From Desulfobacca sp. (lineage in GTDB: Bacteria > Desulfobacterota > Desulfobaccia > Desulfobaccales > Desulfobaccaceae), in contig DYEV01000019.1 of assembly GCA_020725545.1 (NCBI GenBank), forward strand, positions 1-64,000: a DNA stretch of 64,000 nucleotides. Reading direction: 5' to 3'. Numbering within the stretch: position 1 is the first letter of the stretch; every line of letters starts with the position of its first letter. The translations under genes were made by a program, and so were the position numbers. Positions 1 through 54,107 of this stretch are shown here, one piece after another. A model generated the notes under the pieces. The model saw nothing but the letters and a program-made list of their open reading frames with translations, did no database searches and was not told the DNA's origin.

Positions 1-165
1 AACCGTTGGCTCTGCCCTTCTTGGTCATATCATCTCCAGAAATATTATTTCCTTGATATTACCACGGGTTAAGCAATTTCGCGAGCCTTTTTTGGGTCAA
101 TTTTACGTAATAATTTCGATACGTTTTGCAACAGTCTCAAGTTAGCGACTATGGGGGAAATCACG

Positions 166-1587
166 ATGAAGAAATTCTGGTTTTGGTCGTTGGGTTTTAT
201 GCTGGCGCCGATCATGGTACTGGGCTTGTTGACAGCGGCAGAGGCTGCGAAAGAAGAAACAAAAAAGGCGGCCAGCCCGCCGGTCAGCAGTTATGCCCCG
301 GTGGTCATCAAAGAGCCCTTTGCCGTGACTCTGGAGCGGATGAAGAAGGAAAAACCCCAGATCATGCAGCGGCAGATGGATCTCTTGAAACAGCGCTATG
401 ATTTGGAAAACCGGCCGGCGTCCGGGGTGACCATGACGCGGGGCAAAGCGGTCCAGGAAGGGGTGCGGGTGAAACTCTCCCAAGGAATGACCTGGGAAAA
501 ACTGGCGGAGATGAACCCGGAGCAGATCAAAGAACAAGGCCTGTGGCCGGCCGGTTTCCTGCCGCTGCCCCATCCCAATCATCCGGAAGGGGGCATGCTC
601 TTCCCCAAATTCCACATTGAGGAGATCAAAAAACAGGAAGGCCGGGATCTGACCCGCTTTGACCTGGACTATGATCTGCCGGACCACTTCTTGCCGGAAT
701 TTCCGCCGGCCATCTTCCTGACCACCCGGCCGGACCTGGGAGATGTGAGTCAGGGCAAAGTGGTCACTCTGATGAACTACTATGAATTGTTCAACGGCAT
801 CCTCAACCCCAAACAGTTGGAGGGTTTGCGCCTGTTGGTGACGCCGTTTCCCCAGCAGCAGTTCAACCAGACGGAGGATCGGCGTTCGGAGCTGCCCAGT
901 CGGGGGGTGACCTGTTTTGACTGCCATGTCAACGGCCACACCAATGCCGCCACACACCTGGTGGGCGACATCCGGCCCCAGGAGTTCCGCCACAGGATCG
1001 ACACCCCGCCGCTGCGGGGGGTGAATATCCAGCGGCTCTTCGGCTCCCAGCGGGCTTTAAAATCCGTTGAAGATTTCACCGAATTTGAACAGCGGGCCGC
1101 CTATTTTGACGGCGATCCGGTGATTGGCACCAAGAAGGGCCTGAACATCCTGGACCGGGGTCATCAGGTGCATGCCATGGCCGAATTTCAGGCCATTCTG
1201 GATTTTCCGCCGGCCCCCAAGTTAGACATCTATGGGAAATTGGACCCCAAAAAAGCCACAGAGGCCGAATTGCGGGGTCAGGAAATTTTCTTCGGCAAGG
1301 CCCAGTGTGCGGTGTGCCATATTCCGCCCTATTACACGGATAACTTGATGCACAACCTCAAGACGGAAAGATTCTTCAAGCCGCAGATGGTAAACGGCCG
1401 CATGGCCAACCAGGACGGTCCCATCAAGACCTTCCCACTCCGGGGTATCAAAGAATCACCGCCGTATCTCCATGATGGCCGTCTCTTGACTCTGGAAGAT
1501 ACGGTGGAATTCTTTAATCTGGTGCAAGGATTAAAGCTCACCCCTCAGGAGAAAAAAGACCTGGTGGCCTTTTTGCGGGCCCTGTAA
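166..1587 (+). CDS. Exported di-heme cytochrome c (cytochrome c peroxidase/MauG-like)
   Basis: Predicted periplasmic di-heme cytochrome of the cytochrome c peroxidase/MauG superfamily, 473 aa. I chose the ATG at 166 because a GGGGG ribosome-binding stretch lies just before it and the protein then opens with a clean signal peptide (residues 1-27, ending AEA). Two heme c attachment motifs are visible: CFDCH at 250-254 and CAVCH at 381-385. The PPYLHDGR segment near the C-terminus is typical of the peroxidase heme domain. Family members reduce H2O2 with electrons from small cytochromes, or oxidise other substrates. The ~250 residues before the first heme make it longer than classical CcpA (~330 aa), so the substrate is uncertain. 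It appears monocistronic. Confidence 0.85.
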   Translation: MKKFWFWSLGFMLAPIMVLGLLTAAEAAKEETKKAASPPVSSYAPVVIKEPFAVTLERMKKEKPQIMQRQMDLLKQRYDLENRPASGVTMTRGKAVQEGVRVKLSQGMTWEKLAEMNPEQIKEQGLWPAGFLPLPHPNHPEGGMLFPKFHIEEIKKQEGRDLTRFDLDYDLPDHFLPEFPPAIFLTTRPDLGDVSQGKVVTLMNYYELFNGILNPKQLEGLRLLVTPFPQQQFNQTEDRRSELPSRGVTCFDCHVNGHTNAATHLVGDIRPQEFRHRIDTPPLRGVNIQRLFGSQRALKSVEDFTEFEQRAAYFDGDPVIGTKKGLNILDRGHQVHAMAEFQAILDFPPAPKLDIYGKLDPKKATEAELRGQEIFFGKAQCAVCHIPPYYTDNLMHNLKTERFFKPQMVNGRMANQDGPIKTFPLRGIKESPPYLHDGRLLTLEDTVEFFNLVQGLKLTPQEKKDLVAFLRAL

Positions 1588-27859: not shown

Positions 27860-29758
27860 TTAGCCGGCATCTTCTGTTTTGACTTCCTCCTCTTGTTTCA
27901 GACGGAAAAATTCACTCATGATCTGCCGGGCGACGGGCGCCGCGATCTTGCCGCCTTGACCGCCGTGTTCAATGATGACGGCCACGGCGATCTGACTTTT
28001 TTCCACCGGGGCAAAGCTGACAAACCAGGCGTGATCCTGGGTTTTGTGGCGAGCTTTGCCCTTGCCTTCCTTGCCGAGGGAGACGACCTGGGCCGTGCCG
28101 GTCTTGCCGCCCACATCGGCGTAAGGAATCCGGGCGGCGGCACCGGTTCCGCCGCCATCGTGGACTACCCCCCGACAGGCGCGCCGCACGAGTTCCAGGG
28201 TTTTCGGGGAAGCAGGCAGCCGGGATTGGACCTGAGGCTGAAACTGAAAGGCCACCTCGCCGTCCGGGTTGACGATTTTTTCCACTACGGTGGGAGTATA
28301 AATAATGCCGCCGTTCCCCAGAGCGGCGGCCACCCGGACCATCTGCAGGGGGGTGGTGAGATTATAGCCCTGACCGATGGACACGGAAGGGGTTTCCCCT
28401 TCATACCAAGGTTGGTTGAAGCGCTTTCTTTTCCACTCCGAGGATGGCACTAAGCCGGGTTTTTCGGAGTCCAAGATGATGCCGGTGGGGGCGCCGAGGC
28501 CGAATTTCCGGCTCCATGTGGCGATGCGGTCTACACCTAATCTCAGTCCCACGTTGTAATAATAGACATCGCAGGATTGTACCAGGCTGCGGTGCAGGGC
28601 CACGCTGCCGTGCCCCCGTTTGGCATGGCAGTTAAAATAACGGTTACCCACTTGCATACCCCCCTGACAGACAAAGGAGGTGGCCGGATTGACAATGCCT
28701 TCTTCCAGAGCAGCCACCGCCATGACGATTTTAAAGGTGGAACCAGGGGGATATTGGCCTCTGAGGACCCGATTTTCCAGGGGATGATCTTTATTGTTTA
28801 TTAATTCTTGCCAATAGTCGGCGGAGACGGTGCGGGCGAAGCGGCTCTGATCAAAGGTGGGGGCCGAGGCCATGGCCAAAATCCGGCCGGATTGGGGGTC
28901 CAGGGCCACGATGGCGCCCACCTTGCCTTGCAGCAGCTCCTCGGCTTTGGCTTGGAGGCGCCAGTCGATGGTGAGAAAGACATTGGCCCCGGGACTGGCC
29001 GGCGTATTTTTCAGCAACCGCAGTTGCCGGCCATGGGCGTCCACTTCGATCTGCTGGCTGCCCCGCTGGCCGGTGAGGAAAGCATTGTAGCCCAATTCCA
29101 CCCCGCATTTGCCGACGTCATCGCCCATCTTGTTGTTGGGGAATTTGCCGCTCTTCAATTGGGCTTCAGTGATCTCTCCCAAATAGCCGATAATATGCGA
29201 GCCCAAATTATTGGTCTGATACTCCCGCTTGGGTTGGATCTGAATGATGACGCCGGGGAGCTCGTATTTAAAGGTTTCTAAGAGGGCCACCTCATCCATG
29301 CTCAGGTCCTCTTTGATGCGGATGGTCCGGGCCAGATTATCCTGCTGGGCCGTGAGAATGCGGGTGAGGATATCCAGATAATTCATATGGAGGAGCTGTC
29401 CCAGATTCCGAGCCAACTCTTTGGCATCGGGGACATCCTCTAAGATGACCAGAGCGTCATAGGATTCCCGATTATTCACGAGGGCAACGCCCCGGGCATC
29501 AAAGATCATGCCCCGCCAGGGCGGCAGATCCCGGTAACGGACCCGGTTACTCTCGGATTTCTGACTGAATTCATGACCTTTGACCAACTGCAGGAACCAG
29601 AGCCGCAGGATAAGAAAGCCGAAGAGCAGGGCGACCACCAAAACCACATACAGGAGGGAGCGGCGACTATGTTCGTAATCTTCCGGCTCCATGGGGCCGG
29701 CCGGTCCAAAGCCGCGGCCAGCTTGAACAGGCACATCGAGAAGCAGGTTTCTTTTCAT
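27860..29758 (-). CDS. mrdA: Penicillin-binding protein 2 (peptidoglycan transpeptidase)
   Basis: Class B PBP of the elongasome, 632 aa, periplasmic with one N-terminal membrane helix (residues ~31-55, SLLYVVLVVALLFGFLILRL). The dimerisation domain follows, then the transpeptidase domain: SxxK as STFK (Ser340, Lys343), SxN-type motif SCD, and KTGTAQVV. AAGGGGG precedes the ATG 10 nt after mreD. Last gene of the leftward mreB-mreC-mreD-mrdA operon that maintains rod shape; rodA is not adjacent. Confidence 0.95.
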   Translation of the reverse strand: MKRNLLLDVPVQAGRGFGPAGPMEPEDYEHSRRSLLYVVLVVALLFGFLILRLWFLQLVKGHEFSQKSESNRVRYRDLPPWRGMIFDARGVALVNNRESYDALVILEDVPDAKELARNLGQLLHMNYLDILTRILTAQQDNLARTIRIKEDLSMDEVALLETFKYELPGVIIQIQPKREYQTNNLGSHIIGYLGEITEAQLKSGKFPNNKMGDDVGKCGVELGYNAFLTGQRGSQQIEVDAHGRQLRLLKNTPASPGANVFLTIDWRLQAKAEELLQGKVGAIVALDPQSGRILAMASAPTFDQSRFARTVSADYWQELINNKDHPLENRVLRGQYPPGSTFKIVMAVAALEEGIVNPATSFVCQGGMQVGNRYFNCHAKRGHGSVALHRSLVQSCDVYYYNVGLRLGVDRIATWSRKFGLGAPTGIILDSEKPGLVPSSEWKRKRFNQPWYEGETPSVSIGQGYNLTTPLQMVRVAAALGNGGIIYTPTVVEKIVNPDGEVAFQFQPQVQSRLPASPKTLELVRRACRGVVHDGGGTGAAARIPYADVGGKTGTAQVVSLGKEGKGKARHKTQDHAWFVSFAPVEKSQIAVAVIIEHGGQGGKIAAPVARQIMSEFFRLKQEEEVKTEDAG

Positions 29759-29768
29759 GCTCGCCCCC

Positions 29769-30281
29769 TTAGCCCTCCCCGGTGGTCCTCGGGCTTTTCC
29801 TCAGCCAGAATCGCCGCCAACCCTTTTCCAGGAGGTTAAAGAGACCCAAAATGATGGGGGTGCTCAGGGCCGTGACGCCCAATTGCAGGACTACTTGCCG
29901 CAGCATGGCCGTAGAAGCTATTGGCACCGGGAGCAGGAGATGCAGGAGGCCCACCATCACCAGGCCTTGGACCAACATGATCACGGCCACTCCGGTAATT
30001 TGGGGCAAAATATAGAGGAAATTCAGATGGCGCCGCAGAACCGCAGTGGCCACCACGGCCGTGAGCAAAAGGCCGGCCTGCAGTCCCAGGGGAGCCAGGC
30101 CATAGCAGTCCAGGATAAACCCAAAGAGCAAGGCCAGCAGCACTGCCACAGAAAAATCAGCTCGCAGACTCACAAATACCATGAACAGGGTCAACAGATC
30201 CAGACGTAGATTGGCCGGGAACGGCAAGAGATGCTGCAGAAAGAACAAAAAAAAGCCTAAGATGAGATAAAAAAGCACCAT
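29769..30281 (-). CDS. mreD: Rod shape-determining protein MreD
   Basis: Small polytopic inner-membrane component of the elongasome, 170 aa. About five hydrophobic helices, with the charged FRR-type tail (KGWRRFWLRK) at the C-terminus. The sequence itself is weakly conserved in this family; the assignment rests on hydrophobicity, length, and position between mreC and mrdA with gaps of only about 10 nt. Confidence 0.88.
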   Translation of the reverse strand: MVLFYLILGFFLFFLQHLLPFPANLRLDLLTLFMVFVSLRADFSVAVLLALLFGFILDCYGLAPLGLQAGLLLTAVVATAVLRRHLNFLYILPQITGVAVIMLVQGLVMVGLLHLLLPVPIASTAMLRQVVLQLGVTALSTPIILGLFNLLEKGWRRFWLRKSPRTTGEG

Positions 30282-30292
30282 GGTCGCGGGAG

Positions 30293-32369
<2,077 letters not shown>

Positions 32370-50950: not shown

Positions 50951-52369
50951 ATGAGTGATTCCCCTAAAATTCACATCGATGAGTTGCACGTCGGCCTAAG
51001 GCCGGAAGAGATCGACACCATCCTCGGTCTGCGGCATACCTTTGATTATTTCGAGCTCTTAAGCACCTATGTCTCTTCCTATCTGGAATTAGGCTGGCTG
51101 GTCAAACTGGTGATCCCCCAGTTTGACGTCGCTCTGGATATTGATCTGCGCGAGGTGCGGGAAGTCTGGCACCAGGGTTTGACCAATCTGGCCCTGAAAG
51201 GGATTCATGCCTGCCTGATGGTCTATACCGGTTCCGCTTCTCAGCTCTTGGTTTTAGAAGTAGCCGGCAAAAGTACTGAAAAAGCCCTGGCCTTGGGACG
51301 GGATTGGCGTGCCGCCTGCGTTGTGCAGGTGGGACCAGAGCGGGAGCGGCATTTTTACCGATGGCCCGGGTTCTTGGCCATTCCGGCCGAAACTACTATA
51401 GAAAATTTGGATCTGCAGATCTATGGTGAAGGTGGAAAAGTGGCGCTGCCACCTTCCCTCCCGGCCGGCTCGGCCGACCCCATCCATTGGCTGGTGCCTC
51501 CCTGGGAGAGTCCACCAAGCCCGCCCAGTCCTCGGTTGCTAGAATTCTTGCGCAGCCAGTTTACGGCGACGACAATTACTCCTGAAGTCGCAGACGAGGA
51601 AATTCCTGCCTGGGAAAAAGTGCTCCCCTGCATCATGCCCCATCCCCGGTTGATGCAAACCCTGTTGACGCCGAACCCTGATGTCGAGGATTACTATCAT
51701 GCTCTCCTGGCCGCAGCCAGGGAGGAAGGCCTTGTCGACCCCCAGCTGCTCTTGGGATTACTGTGGCACGCCCCCCTCGGCGCCCACCGACAGCAGACAG
51801 ACAGTCTGCCCTGGTTTAAAGAGCTGATCATCGGTCAACGGACCGCACCGGTGGCCGATGAGGAAGAGAGCCCGGCGTTGGCTAAGGTGCAGCAACAATT
51901 AGCTGCTCTTTTAGAAGACCTGCATAAAACCATGGCCAGCCTCAAAGAAGAACGACAAAAGGTTTTGCAGGAATCTTTTCGCCCTGCCCACACCTTCGCC
52001 GAGGGGTCTGACCACGGGGTCCAGATGGGCAGAGCACGAGGAAATTTCTCCCAAATGTACGGTCAGGAACCCAGTCCCCCCCAGGCGCCGCCCATCAGCC
52101 AGCCACCCCGCCCCCCCATAGAGTGGCCCTCGGTCTCGGTGTTTCAGAGTTCTCCTTATGCCTTGGGGGAGATTCCCGTGAATCGGAAACAATACGAAGC
52201 CATGATTTATGAGTTGGGCCGTCTGGCGGCCATGGAAAAAGTCAACAGCCGTTCTGTGCGGGAGAGCAGCTCCCTCAGGACGAAATTAGAAGCCCAACGA
52301 CAGGCGGAAATTGACAATTTGCGGCAACTGGTACGTGAAAGAAAACCGAAAAAATGGTGGGAGCGATGA
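50951..52369 (+). CDS. Hypothetical protein of the MinD-like cassette, 472 aa
   Basis: Not recognised. I chose the ATG at 50951 because GGAGGGG lies upstream. Residues ~1-190 look alpha/beta and soluble (LGWLVKLVIPQFDVALDIDLREV; LLVLEVAGKSTEKAL). A Pro-rich linker follows near 200 and another near 390. A coiled coil lies at about 325-365 and a second helical segment at the basic C-terminus (EAQRQAEIDNLRQLVRERKPKKWW). Its stop overlaps the next gene's start (ATGA). The arrangement suggests a cytoplasmic scaffold that works with the PilZ-like and ATPase proteins encoded downstream. Confidence 0.7.
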   Translation: MSDSPKIHIDELHVGLRPEEIDTILGLRHTFDYFELLSTYVSSYLELGWLVKLVIPQFDVALDIDLREVREVWHQGLTNLALKGIHACLMVYTGSASQLLVLEVAGKSTEKALALGRDWRAACVVQVGPERERHFYRWPGFLAIPAETTIENLDLQIYGEGGKVALPPSLPAGSADPIHWLVPPWESPPSPPSPRLLEFLRSQFTATTITPEVADEEIPAWEKVLPCIMPHPRLMQTLLTPNPDVEDYYHALLAAAREEGLVDPQLLLGLLWHAPLGAHRQQTDSLPWFKELIIGQRTAPVADEEESPALAKVQQQLAALLEDLHKTMASLKEERQKVLQESFRPAHTFAEGSDHGVQMGRARGNFSQMYGQEPSPPQAPPISQPPRPPIEWPSVSVFQSSPYALGEIPVNRKQYEAMIYELGRLAAMEKVNSRSVRESSSLRTKLEAQRQAEIDNLRQLVRERKPKKWWER

Positions 52370-53103
52370 TGACCGAACCAACCGCCCAATCTCAGCCGGG
52401 ACAAAACCGACTTCCAGCTTTTCATCTATCTCTGCAGCTATTCCAGACCACTGGCGAGGAAGCCTTTCATCTGGCGGTAACCGTGAAGCACCTAACCACC
52501 GCCGGGGTTGTTCTCGAACTGTTGGAACCACCTGATGGTTTTTTCGATGATAATCTGAAAGGGCTGCAAGGGTTTCTGTTGGGCAATGGCGACCACGACG
52601 GCCTCTTGGTGAAAGTGCCAACCAAAATCCTCTGGACTAAAAAACATGAGGAAGATACTGCGGCCACTGTCGGTCTGGAACTCTTGAAACCCCTCCCTCT
52701 GTCCATGCGCCATGCCCTGGAAGATGATCTGGCTGGCGGCGCCAAGGATATGAGAGTCCTGTGGGATTATTGGGATGAGATGCAGCAAGACTCCGGCCCG
52801 GAGGCTTTGGAGGCGGCCCCGACGTCAGTACCTGTCAAACCTGTGGCCCCCACCCCCGTGGCGCCACAGGCAAGCCCCACCCCGGCAGCAAGCCCCCCGG
52901 CTGCGGCCCAAAGTTCAGGCGGTTGGGTATATCTGGTAGGATTTGCGGCCATCGTGATCGGGGTCGCCATGCAATATCCCCAATCAGAGCAAATGGCCTT
53001 TTCCGGCCTGGTGGTCATGTTTCTGGGGAGCATCGTGGTAGCCGGCAAAAGTCTCAGCAGTATGTGGCAACTCTCTTCTTCTCATTCCTCTGAATCAAGG
53101 TAA
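52366..53103 (+). CDS. PilZ-like protein with C-terminal membrane helices
   Basis: 245 aa. The first ~120 residues have the order of a PilZ domain (AFHLAVTVKHLTTAGVVLEL, LLVKVPTKILWTK, ATVGLELLKPL). The c-di-GMP signature RxxxR...(D/N)xSxxG is not intact (HLTTAG where DxSxxG is expected), so it may bind another partner. A Pro/Ala linker (~140-185) follows, then two helices at ~192-232. Translation is coupled to the preceding gene (ATGA). Domain assignment is tentative and needs a profile search. Confidence 0.6.
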   Translation: MMTEPTAQSQPGQNRLPAFHLSLQLFQTTGEEAFHLAVTVKHLTTAGVVLELLEPPDGFFDDNLKGLQGFLLGNGDHDGLLVKVPTKILWTKKHEEDTAATVGLELLKPLPLSMRHALEDDLAGGAKDMRVLWDYWDEMQQDSGPEALEAAPTSVPVKPVAPTPVAPQASPTPAASPPAAAQSSGGWVYLVGFAAIVIGVAMQYPQSEQMAFSGLVVMFLGSIVVAGKSLSSMWQLSSSHSSESR

Positions 53104-53156
53104 AGGAGAGTCTGTTTTTCTCCTGACGGCGCCGTCAACCGAAAGAGAGCAATCTT

Positions 53157-54107
53157 ATGAATGGAAAAAAGTTATGGAGTATCGGCGGTGGTAAAGGGGG
53201 TATCGGCAAGAGCATCTTTACCTTGGGGCTGGGCATCACTCTGGCCCAGATGGGGAAAAAGATTATTCTCATCGATGCCGATCTGGGGGGTGCCAACCTT
53301 CACACCCTCATGGGAGTTCGGTATCCTCCCTTTACCCTCGAGGATTTTATCCTCAAACGGGTCGACCGCCTGGAGGATATCGTCATTGAGACTCAGGTGG
53401 AGGGCATCGGCCTCATCTGCGGCGCCGATGACATCATGGGGGCCGCCAACCCCAAATTTGCCCAAAAAATCCGCCTACTGAACCAGTTGGAGGACCTGCC
53501 CGCCGATCTCGTCTTCCTGGATCTGGGGGCCGGCACCTCTTTTAATGTTCTGGATTTTTTTAATTATTCTGCGGGCAAGATCGCCGTCTTTACCAATCAA
53601 TCCACTTCTTTGCAAAATGTCTATGGTTTTATCAAAAGCGCCCTGTTCCGTTTTCTTAGCCGGGAATTTTCCCGGGATGATGAAATCTTACTCTTACTGC
53701 AGCAGGCCGGCAGCCGTCTCGCCAAGCTTCATTCCGTGGAAGACATCCTCAACCATCTGCAGAACAAAAATGTGGAGAAATATGCCCGTCTGAAACAGAT
53801 CATCGATCACTTTGAGATCTTTTTGGTCGTGAATATGGTGAAGACCGAACTAGATCGCAAAGCCGCCCAGGTGATTCAAAAGGTCAGCCAGGACTTCCTG
53901 AATCTGCACCCCCAAATCTTCGGGACCCTGGCATACGATCCGGAAGTGGAAAAGGCCGTCAATCAAATGCTCCCATTCCCTACCCGCAGCCAGAACAGCC
54001 CGGCCGCGTTAGGTCTGCAGCATATCGCCGTGCAAGTCTTAAAAGAAGCCAAGGTGAGCGACCTGACCACAGCCCCGCGGCTGGCTGCCACCGGCGCCTG
54101 GGGCTAA
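53157..54107 (+). CDS. MinD/ParA-family ATPase (FlhG-like)
   Basis: Deviant-Walker-A ATPase, 316 aa: GGGKGGIGKSIFTLGLG with the signature lysine, Walker B IDADLGGANLHTLMG, and switch segment DLVFLDLGAGTS. Members place flagella, chemoreceptors, carboxysomes or other cargo by ATP-dependent membrane or nucleoid binding. It resembles FlhG (YlxH), but no flagellar genes are nearby. 53 nt after the PilZ-like gene, so the three genes form one transcript. Cargo unknown; the two upstream proteins are obvious candidates. Confidence 0.85.
   Translation: MNGKKLWSIGGGKGGIGKSIFTLGLGITLAQMGKKIILIDADLGGANLHTLMGVRYPPFTLEDFILKRVDRLEDIVIETQVEGIGLICGADDIMGAANPKFAQKIRLLNQLEDLPADLVFLDLGAGTSFNVLDFFNYSAGKIAVFTNQSTSLQNVYGFIKSALFRFLSREFSRDDEILLLLQQAGSRLAKLHSVEDILNHLQNKNVEKYARLKQIIDHFEIFLVVNMVKTELDRKAAQVIQKVSQDFLNLHPQIFGTLAYDPEVEKAVNQMLPFPTRSQNSPAALGLQHIAVQVLKEAKVSDLTTAPRLAATGAWG

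Follow-up and report, generated by a model that had tools for sequence, protein, structure and literature searches.

A conserved gene triad of a MinD-type ATPase, a PilZ-fold membrane protein and a Prim-Pol homologue lacking the catalytic residues in Desulfobacca and its relatives

Gene arrangement and surroundings

The window, a stretch of 64,000 nucleotides from the genome of a Desulfobacca sp., contains three tandem genes on the forward strand (Table 1), all of them with intact reading frames. The first two overlap at an ATGA and the third follows after 53 nt, as described in the first-pass annotation. The ATG at 52366, within the overlap, is one of the start options for gene 2, the other being 52369, while 52354 is also in frame. 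The triad is flanked by housekeeping genes, read by eye as lepA, hemW and uvrC, the last of which is the next gene after it, on the opposite strand. The earlier remark that no flagellar, pilus or division genes lie near the ATPase gene held for about 15 kb around the triad, also by eye, and neither an HD-GYP nor a Tad gene is located beside this copy. About 19 kb upstream (window positions 27863-31144), PBP2, MreD and MreC-like genes were read by eye as a cell-shape cluster. A scan for promoters and terminators gave no signal exceeding chance. The same gene order repeats across the taxonomic order, at identities of 35-40% for gene 1 and 60-65% for gene 3, indicating that the arrangement is not due to chance.

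Table 1. Genes and features of the triad. Coordinates refer to the window, residues to the encoded protein.
Feature	Position	Strand	Description or basis
Gene 1	50951..52369	+	472 aa; GGAGGGG precedes the start
Prim-Pol (AEP) domain without catalytic residues	gene 1, residues about 40-200		Pfam, matches of homologues, motif comparison, hhalign
Three former catalytic motifs (LVLEVAG; ERERHFYRWP; LDLQIYGEGGKVALPPS)	51143..51460	+	Other residues in place of the D, D, H, D of active Prim-Pols
Helical domain	gene 1, residues about 220-297		Only confident stretch of the structure model
Proline-rich linker, then C-terminal coiled coil with basic aromatic tail	gene 1, after the helical domain		
Gene 2	52366..53103	+	About 245 aa
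PilZ-fold domain without RxxxR	gene 2, residues about 20-120		AlphaFold model and Foldseek
Conserved LWDxWD helix	gene 2, residues about 125-141		Alignment; after the barrel, linker next
Two transmembrane helices	gene 2, residues about 185-203 and 207-232		Hydropathy and alignment
Gene 3	53157..54107	+	316 aa; GGGKGGIGKS at residues 10-19

Gene 1 is a Prim-Pol homologue without catalytic residues

The first-pass annotation recognised no family for the 472-aa protein. However, its first ~200 residues correspond to Prim-Pol: the protein matches Pfam family PF09250 with an E-value of 5.3e-7, over the curated cut-off, and three homologues from other genera match the same family independently (4.5e-10, 2.4e-6 and 7.8e-5). 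A profile of the gene 1 family retrieves ordinary Prim-Pols in other genomes, and alignment of the two groups with hhalign gave a probability of 96.9 and an E-value of 1.4e-10. The AlphaFold model is poor (mean pLDDT 49) and weak in the Prim-Pol part, and the fold claim therefore rests on the sequence profiles. A Foldseek search with such a model is meaningless, and the search for solved relatives by sequence returned chance matches only.

All four catalytic residues (D, D, H and D) are present in 11 out of 11 ordinary Prim-Pols of the same order, whereas none of the three metal-binding aspartates (the D-x-D of motif I and the D of motif III) is found in any of the 19 gene 1 family members (0/19). 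The first aspartate column contains E in 17 members and K in 2; the second is occupied by H, A, R, C, N or P, and the third by M, T, Q or other residues. Q or R occupies the column of the catalytic histidine in 16 out of 19, and a histidine stands at the next position. This change alone would not prove gene 1 inactive, because the active PolpTN2 has Q at that position (PMC5862659). It is the loss of all three aspartates that, judging from the alignment, makes polymerase chemistry by gene 1 very unlikely. E132 and H134, in turn, are conserved in 90% or more of the 19 members.

The domain is homologous to that of the AEP primase-polymerases (PF09250; PMC5862659), from which gene 1 differs in its lost aspartates and in its stable chromosomal setting, while the published Prim-Pols of the bacterial PrimPol-PV1 group are almost all carried by mobile elements (PMC5862659). 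The Prim-Pol domain of gene 1 looks domesticated. A phage or plasmid origin was rejected, since no relative was found in viral contigs; PHROGs yielded a weak primase match only, to a gene 1 homologue. The helical part was considered as a PriCT and rejected as well, with no hhalign match to the region after the domain in 14 Prim-Pols. Some paralogues end in a C-terminal motif, NPDLxxD...KNYxxxNPE, with no convincing Pfam match.

Gene 2 is predicted to be a membrane-bound PilZ-fold protein

The barrel in the AlphaFold model of gene 2 has pLDDT values mostly of 75-93, and Foldseek searches against the PDB retrieved the PilZ domains of BcsA, Alg44, PlzA, MrkH and MotI. The window protein has no PilZ match in Pfam; a homologue matches PF07238 just below the cut-off (E-value of 3.3e-4), and the family profile matches PilZ proteins that carry RxxxR. 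At the aligned place, RxxxR is absent from 13 members of the family in the order, and the window protein reads LTTAG where PilZ receptors have (D/N)xSxxG. By model and alignment, gene 2 is a PilZ fold without the c-di-GMP-receptor motifs. Together with the two membrane spans, this agrees with its initial description as a membrane-anchored, PilZ-like protein lacking the c-di-GMP motif.

Gene 3 belongs with the MinD/FlhG/FleN ATPases

Gene 3 matches CbiA/ParA in Pfam, and its nearest solved relatives are FleN (5j1j, E-value of 6.7e-21), FlhG (4rz2) and archaeal MinD. These matches and the deviant Walker A GGGKGGIGKS bear out the original reading of a MinD/FlhG-like ATPase. Its motifs are invariant in 11 homologues. 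The C-terminus reads TTAPRLAATGAWG, with no obvious amphipathic helix when inspected by eye only. FlhG/FleN and MinD resemble gene 3 in fold, in the deviant Walker A and as its closest sequence relatives, but they have other partner genes, and the window's genome lacks the flagellar switch gene: no FliM was found in this 99.96% complete genome or in several others that carry the triad. A flagellar role of the FlhG kind is thereby excluded, and the flagellum does not explain the ATPase, as had been supposed from its neighbourhood.

Two further candidates were discarded. Gene 3 begins at the P-loop, without the N-terminal receiver-like domain of TadZ/CpaE of Tad pili; at the Tad locus of one genome (G017), an ATPase of 397 aa that does have an N-terminal extension is encoded separately. 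Assignment to BcsQ failed at 12.5 bits against the PF06564 cut-off of 21.3. In genome G009, the ATPase gene is split over two overlapping frames (L096:8716-9737), through a frameshift or an assembly error.

Distribution and descent of the triad

Gene 1 is present in 19 out of 22 genomes of the sister family of the same order (f2), and in one of the seven genomes of the window's own family (f1), namely the window's, and turned up nowhere else. Since the adjacency also recurs across the order, the cassette is conserved outside the genome in which it was first noticed. Gene 1 is absent from the other six f1 genomes, where two weak profile matches (G002 and G005) are ordinary Prim-Pols. In a sample of 297 genomes from across the phylum, only weak matches came from beyond the order (E-values of 1e-4 to 5e-10), all of them ordinary Prim-Pols where inspected. 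Two family-specific peptides, searched against 84,980 genomes, retrieved 13 loci, whose titles all read Syntrophobacterales, Syntrophales, Deltaproteobacteria or uncultured bacterium.

In the gene 3 tree, the window ATPase falls outside the f2 copies as a whole, though support for this branching is modest (84/80). A recent horizontal gain by the window's genome is therefore unsupported, and old vertical descent with loss in the other six f1 genomes would be the simpler account.

PilZ-ATPase pairs elsewhere in the phylum

Immediately upstream of each of the eight nearest ATPases from beyond the order (families f18, f9 and f57) is a PilZ gene (8/8), the one in f57 being recognised by profile match only. 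Tests on four of the PilZ proteins, from f9 and f18, showed that all exceed the Pfam PilZ cut-off and combine an RxxxR start with an LWDLW end as in the triad's gene 2. Such pairs (L106, L144, L147 and L148) share with the triad the gene order, the ATPase family and the LWDxW end, but their PilZ proteins keep RxxxR and have no membrane spans, and gene 1 is missing. Because the nearest outgroup ATPases sit behind PilZ genes, PilZ and ATPase are probably the older unit, to which gene 1 would have been added later in this order; here, the PilZ protein probably lost its arginines and gained membrane spans.

At two f9 loci (L150:1-987 and L148:3-929), a class III nucleotide-cyclase-like gene, read by eye, precedes the pair. 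More distant members of the ATPase family, in f8, f11, f31 and f32, are followed by a J-domain gene instead, and two of these genes were confirmed to encode DnaJ plus HTH_25. Such a DnaJ plus HTH_25 (RodZ-type) protein comes after the ATPase at L154:2436-3119, L156:2415-3014 and similar loci, and represents a second type of partner outside the order.

Genes adjoining the relatives of the triad

HD-GYP genes adjoin relatives of the triad at ten loci. At five main loci, in genera g4 and g9, the HD-GYP gene is directly downstream of the ATPase gene; Pfam HD_5 confirmed two of the proteins, and in all five the HD motif and a GYP-type motif are aligned. At the other five, which are paralogous and belong to genera g3, g5 and g8, it directly follows gene 1. 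The window's genome holds a single, weak relative of these triad-linked HD-GYPs, located ~12 kb from its Tad genes (G000:C23:82281-95073; L178, L204).

Two paralogous triads close a Tad pilus operon or are neighbours of TadG, and a third Tad-associated copy, about 5 kb from TadG, adjoins a ParA gene. Tad-type and ParA-type paralogues group together in the gene 1 and gene 3 trees alike, indicating that these genes travel together. Tad genes are nearly universal in the order, including genomes without the triad, and their presence or absence cannot link them to it; in the window's genome they are on another contig than the triad.

Other associations were observed at single or few loci. An orphan Soj-type ParA gene directly precedes gene 1 in two genomes (L100:9370-10461 and L105:12662-13708). 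A J-domain is fused to a MinD-type ATPase, giving a protein of about 400 aa, at L172:7757-8965 (minus strand), where the fusion comes after gene 1 and HD-GYP and its DnaJ match is just below the Pfam cut-off, and at L176:10017-11273 and L177:8104-9318, both detected by the ATPase profile only. Gene 1 and HD-GYP also have a recurrent neighbour of ~360-410 aa that carries the C-terminal motif TSNKYHxPxCxW (L170:6840-8051, L173:4998-6227 and L171:12914-13996); the L170 copy has no Pfam match.

A proposed membrane-tethered ATPase module, possibly under c-di-GMP control

We propose, with the chances evenly poised, that the triad encodes a MinD-type ATPase module which is tethered to the membrane and linked to c-di-GMP signalling, its domesticated pseudo-primase acting as adaptor or sensor. 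The three products would form a physical complex, anchored in the inner membrane by the two C-terminal helices of gene 2, whose PilZ domain and adjoining LWDxWD helix would dock and regulate the gene 3 ATPase. The domesticated Prim-Pol domain of gene 1 would no longer synthesise nucleic acid; as adaptor or ligand sensor it would connect the ATPase with a target and also with the HD-GYP enzymes that turn over c-di-GMP, a link that the window copy may share. This turnover would set the state of the ATPase, and ATP-driven dimer cycling would then switch the assembly or placement of an envelope machine, for which Tad-type pili would be the best candidate in some paralogues.

The proposed tether and adaptor mechanism is modelled on two known systems. 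In the cellulose secretion of E. coli, BcsE, with its degenerate REC-GGDEF, and the membrane peptide BcsF recruit the MinD-like BcsQ (PMC7439463). As in the triad, a MinD-like ATPase is combined with a protein carrying a degenerate nucleotide-handling domain and a membrane-anchored partner, in a c-di-GMP setting. However, the parallel is one of analogy: BcsE is built on REC*-GGDEF* whereas gene 1 carries Prim-Pol, and BcsF is a short membrane peptide whereas gene 2 is a PilZ protein. In the PilB-PilZ-FimX system of type IV pili (PMC8389850), FimX is a GGDEF/EAL protein and the ATPase is the pilus assembly motor, which, unlike gene 3, is not MinD-type.

Most neighbours of the relatives are c-di-GMP signalling genes, which speaks for a membrane ATPase controlled by signalling rather than for cargo placement alone. 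Against a c-di-GMP module stand the window copy, with neither an HD-GYP nor a Tad neighbour, the one weak HD-GYP relative in its genome and the lost arginines of gene 2. Only tentatively, the Prim-Pol domain may be a non-catalytic receptor for c-di-GMP or another nucleotide messenger, working with HD-GYP and gating the PilZ-anchored MinD-type ATPase. The first-pass annotation had instead proposed a spatial-positioning module with a new cargo adaptor. In its strict form, gene 3 would move or anchor cargo at some position in the cell, with gene 1 as the cargo adaptor and gene 2 as a membrane landmark, as the closeness of gene 3 to FleN/FlhG and MinD and the copies at Tad pilus loci would suggest. 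ATPases of the MinD/FlhG type are, moreover, commonly encoded beside very diverse, cargo-defining partner proteins (PMC10241942). Yet the main triad has no co-travelling cargo gene, its recurrent companions being signalling genes, and gene 2, like the partner presumed to be ancestral, is a PilZ protein. Positioning may still play a part, but the HD-GYP genes at ten loci and the RxxxR PilZ proteins of the outgroup point rather to signalling control, and we consider the strict version rather unlikely.

Descent from a primase-polymerase fold, and the orphan ParA gene preceding two gene 1 copies, could also mean that gene 1 still binds DNA or primers and that the module connects a membrane ATPase with the nucleoid or takes part in a DNA transaction. 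This is improbable for a protein without any metal-binding aspartate, beside which no helicase, PriCT homology or mobile-element gene was seen (neighbours by eye; hhalign), and whose relatives adjoin signalling or pilus genes. Finally, the retention of E132 and H134 despite the loss of the old motifs raises the idea of a new catalytic site, with the near-invariant ExH in place of motif II, in a nucleotidyl-transfer or phosphodiester signalling enzyme. Gene 1 retains no three-carboxylate site, and position 103 varies between E and K (17 and 2 of the 19 members), making such an enzyme highly improbable.

Implications

MinD/ParA ATPases are widespread, and many have no known partner. Here, one family of them gains a PilZ partner that is conserved across part of the phylum, and an unexpected third partner, a primase fold minus its catalytic site. 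It is this partner set, PilZ plus pseudo-primase, that is new, the ATPase being otherwise of a known MinD-type kind; in open-access text, we found no paper that describes a signalling role for a non-catalytic Prim-Pol or a gene pair of PilZ and MinD. The PilZ protein with its LWDxWD, the HD-GYP and the pseudo-primase provide concrete genes for studying the control of MinD-type ATPases by c-di-GMP. If the proposed module is real, a replication domain would have been reused in second-messenger signalling. Were the Prim-Pol domain in fact a receptor, it would add a new class to the effectors of nucleotide messengers and a new type to the partners of MinD ATPases.
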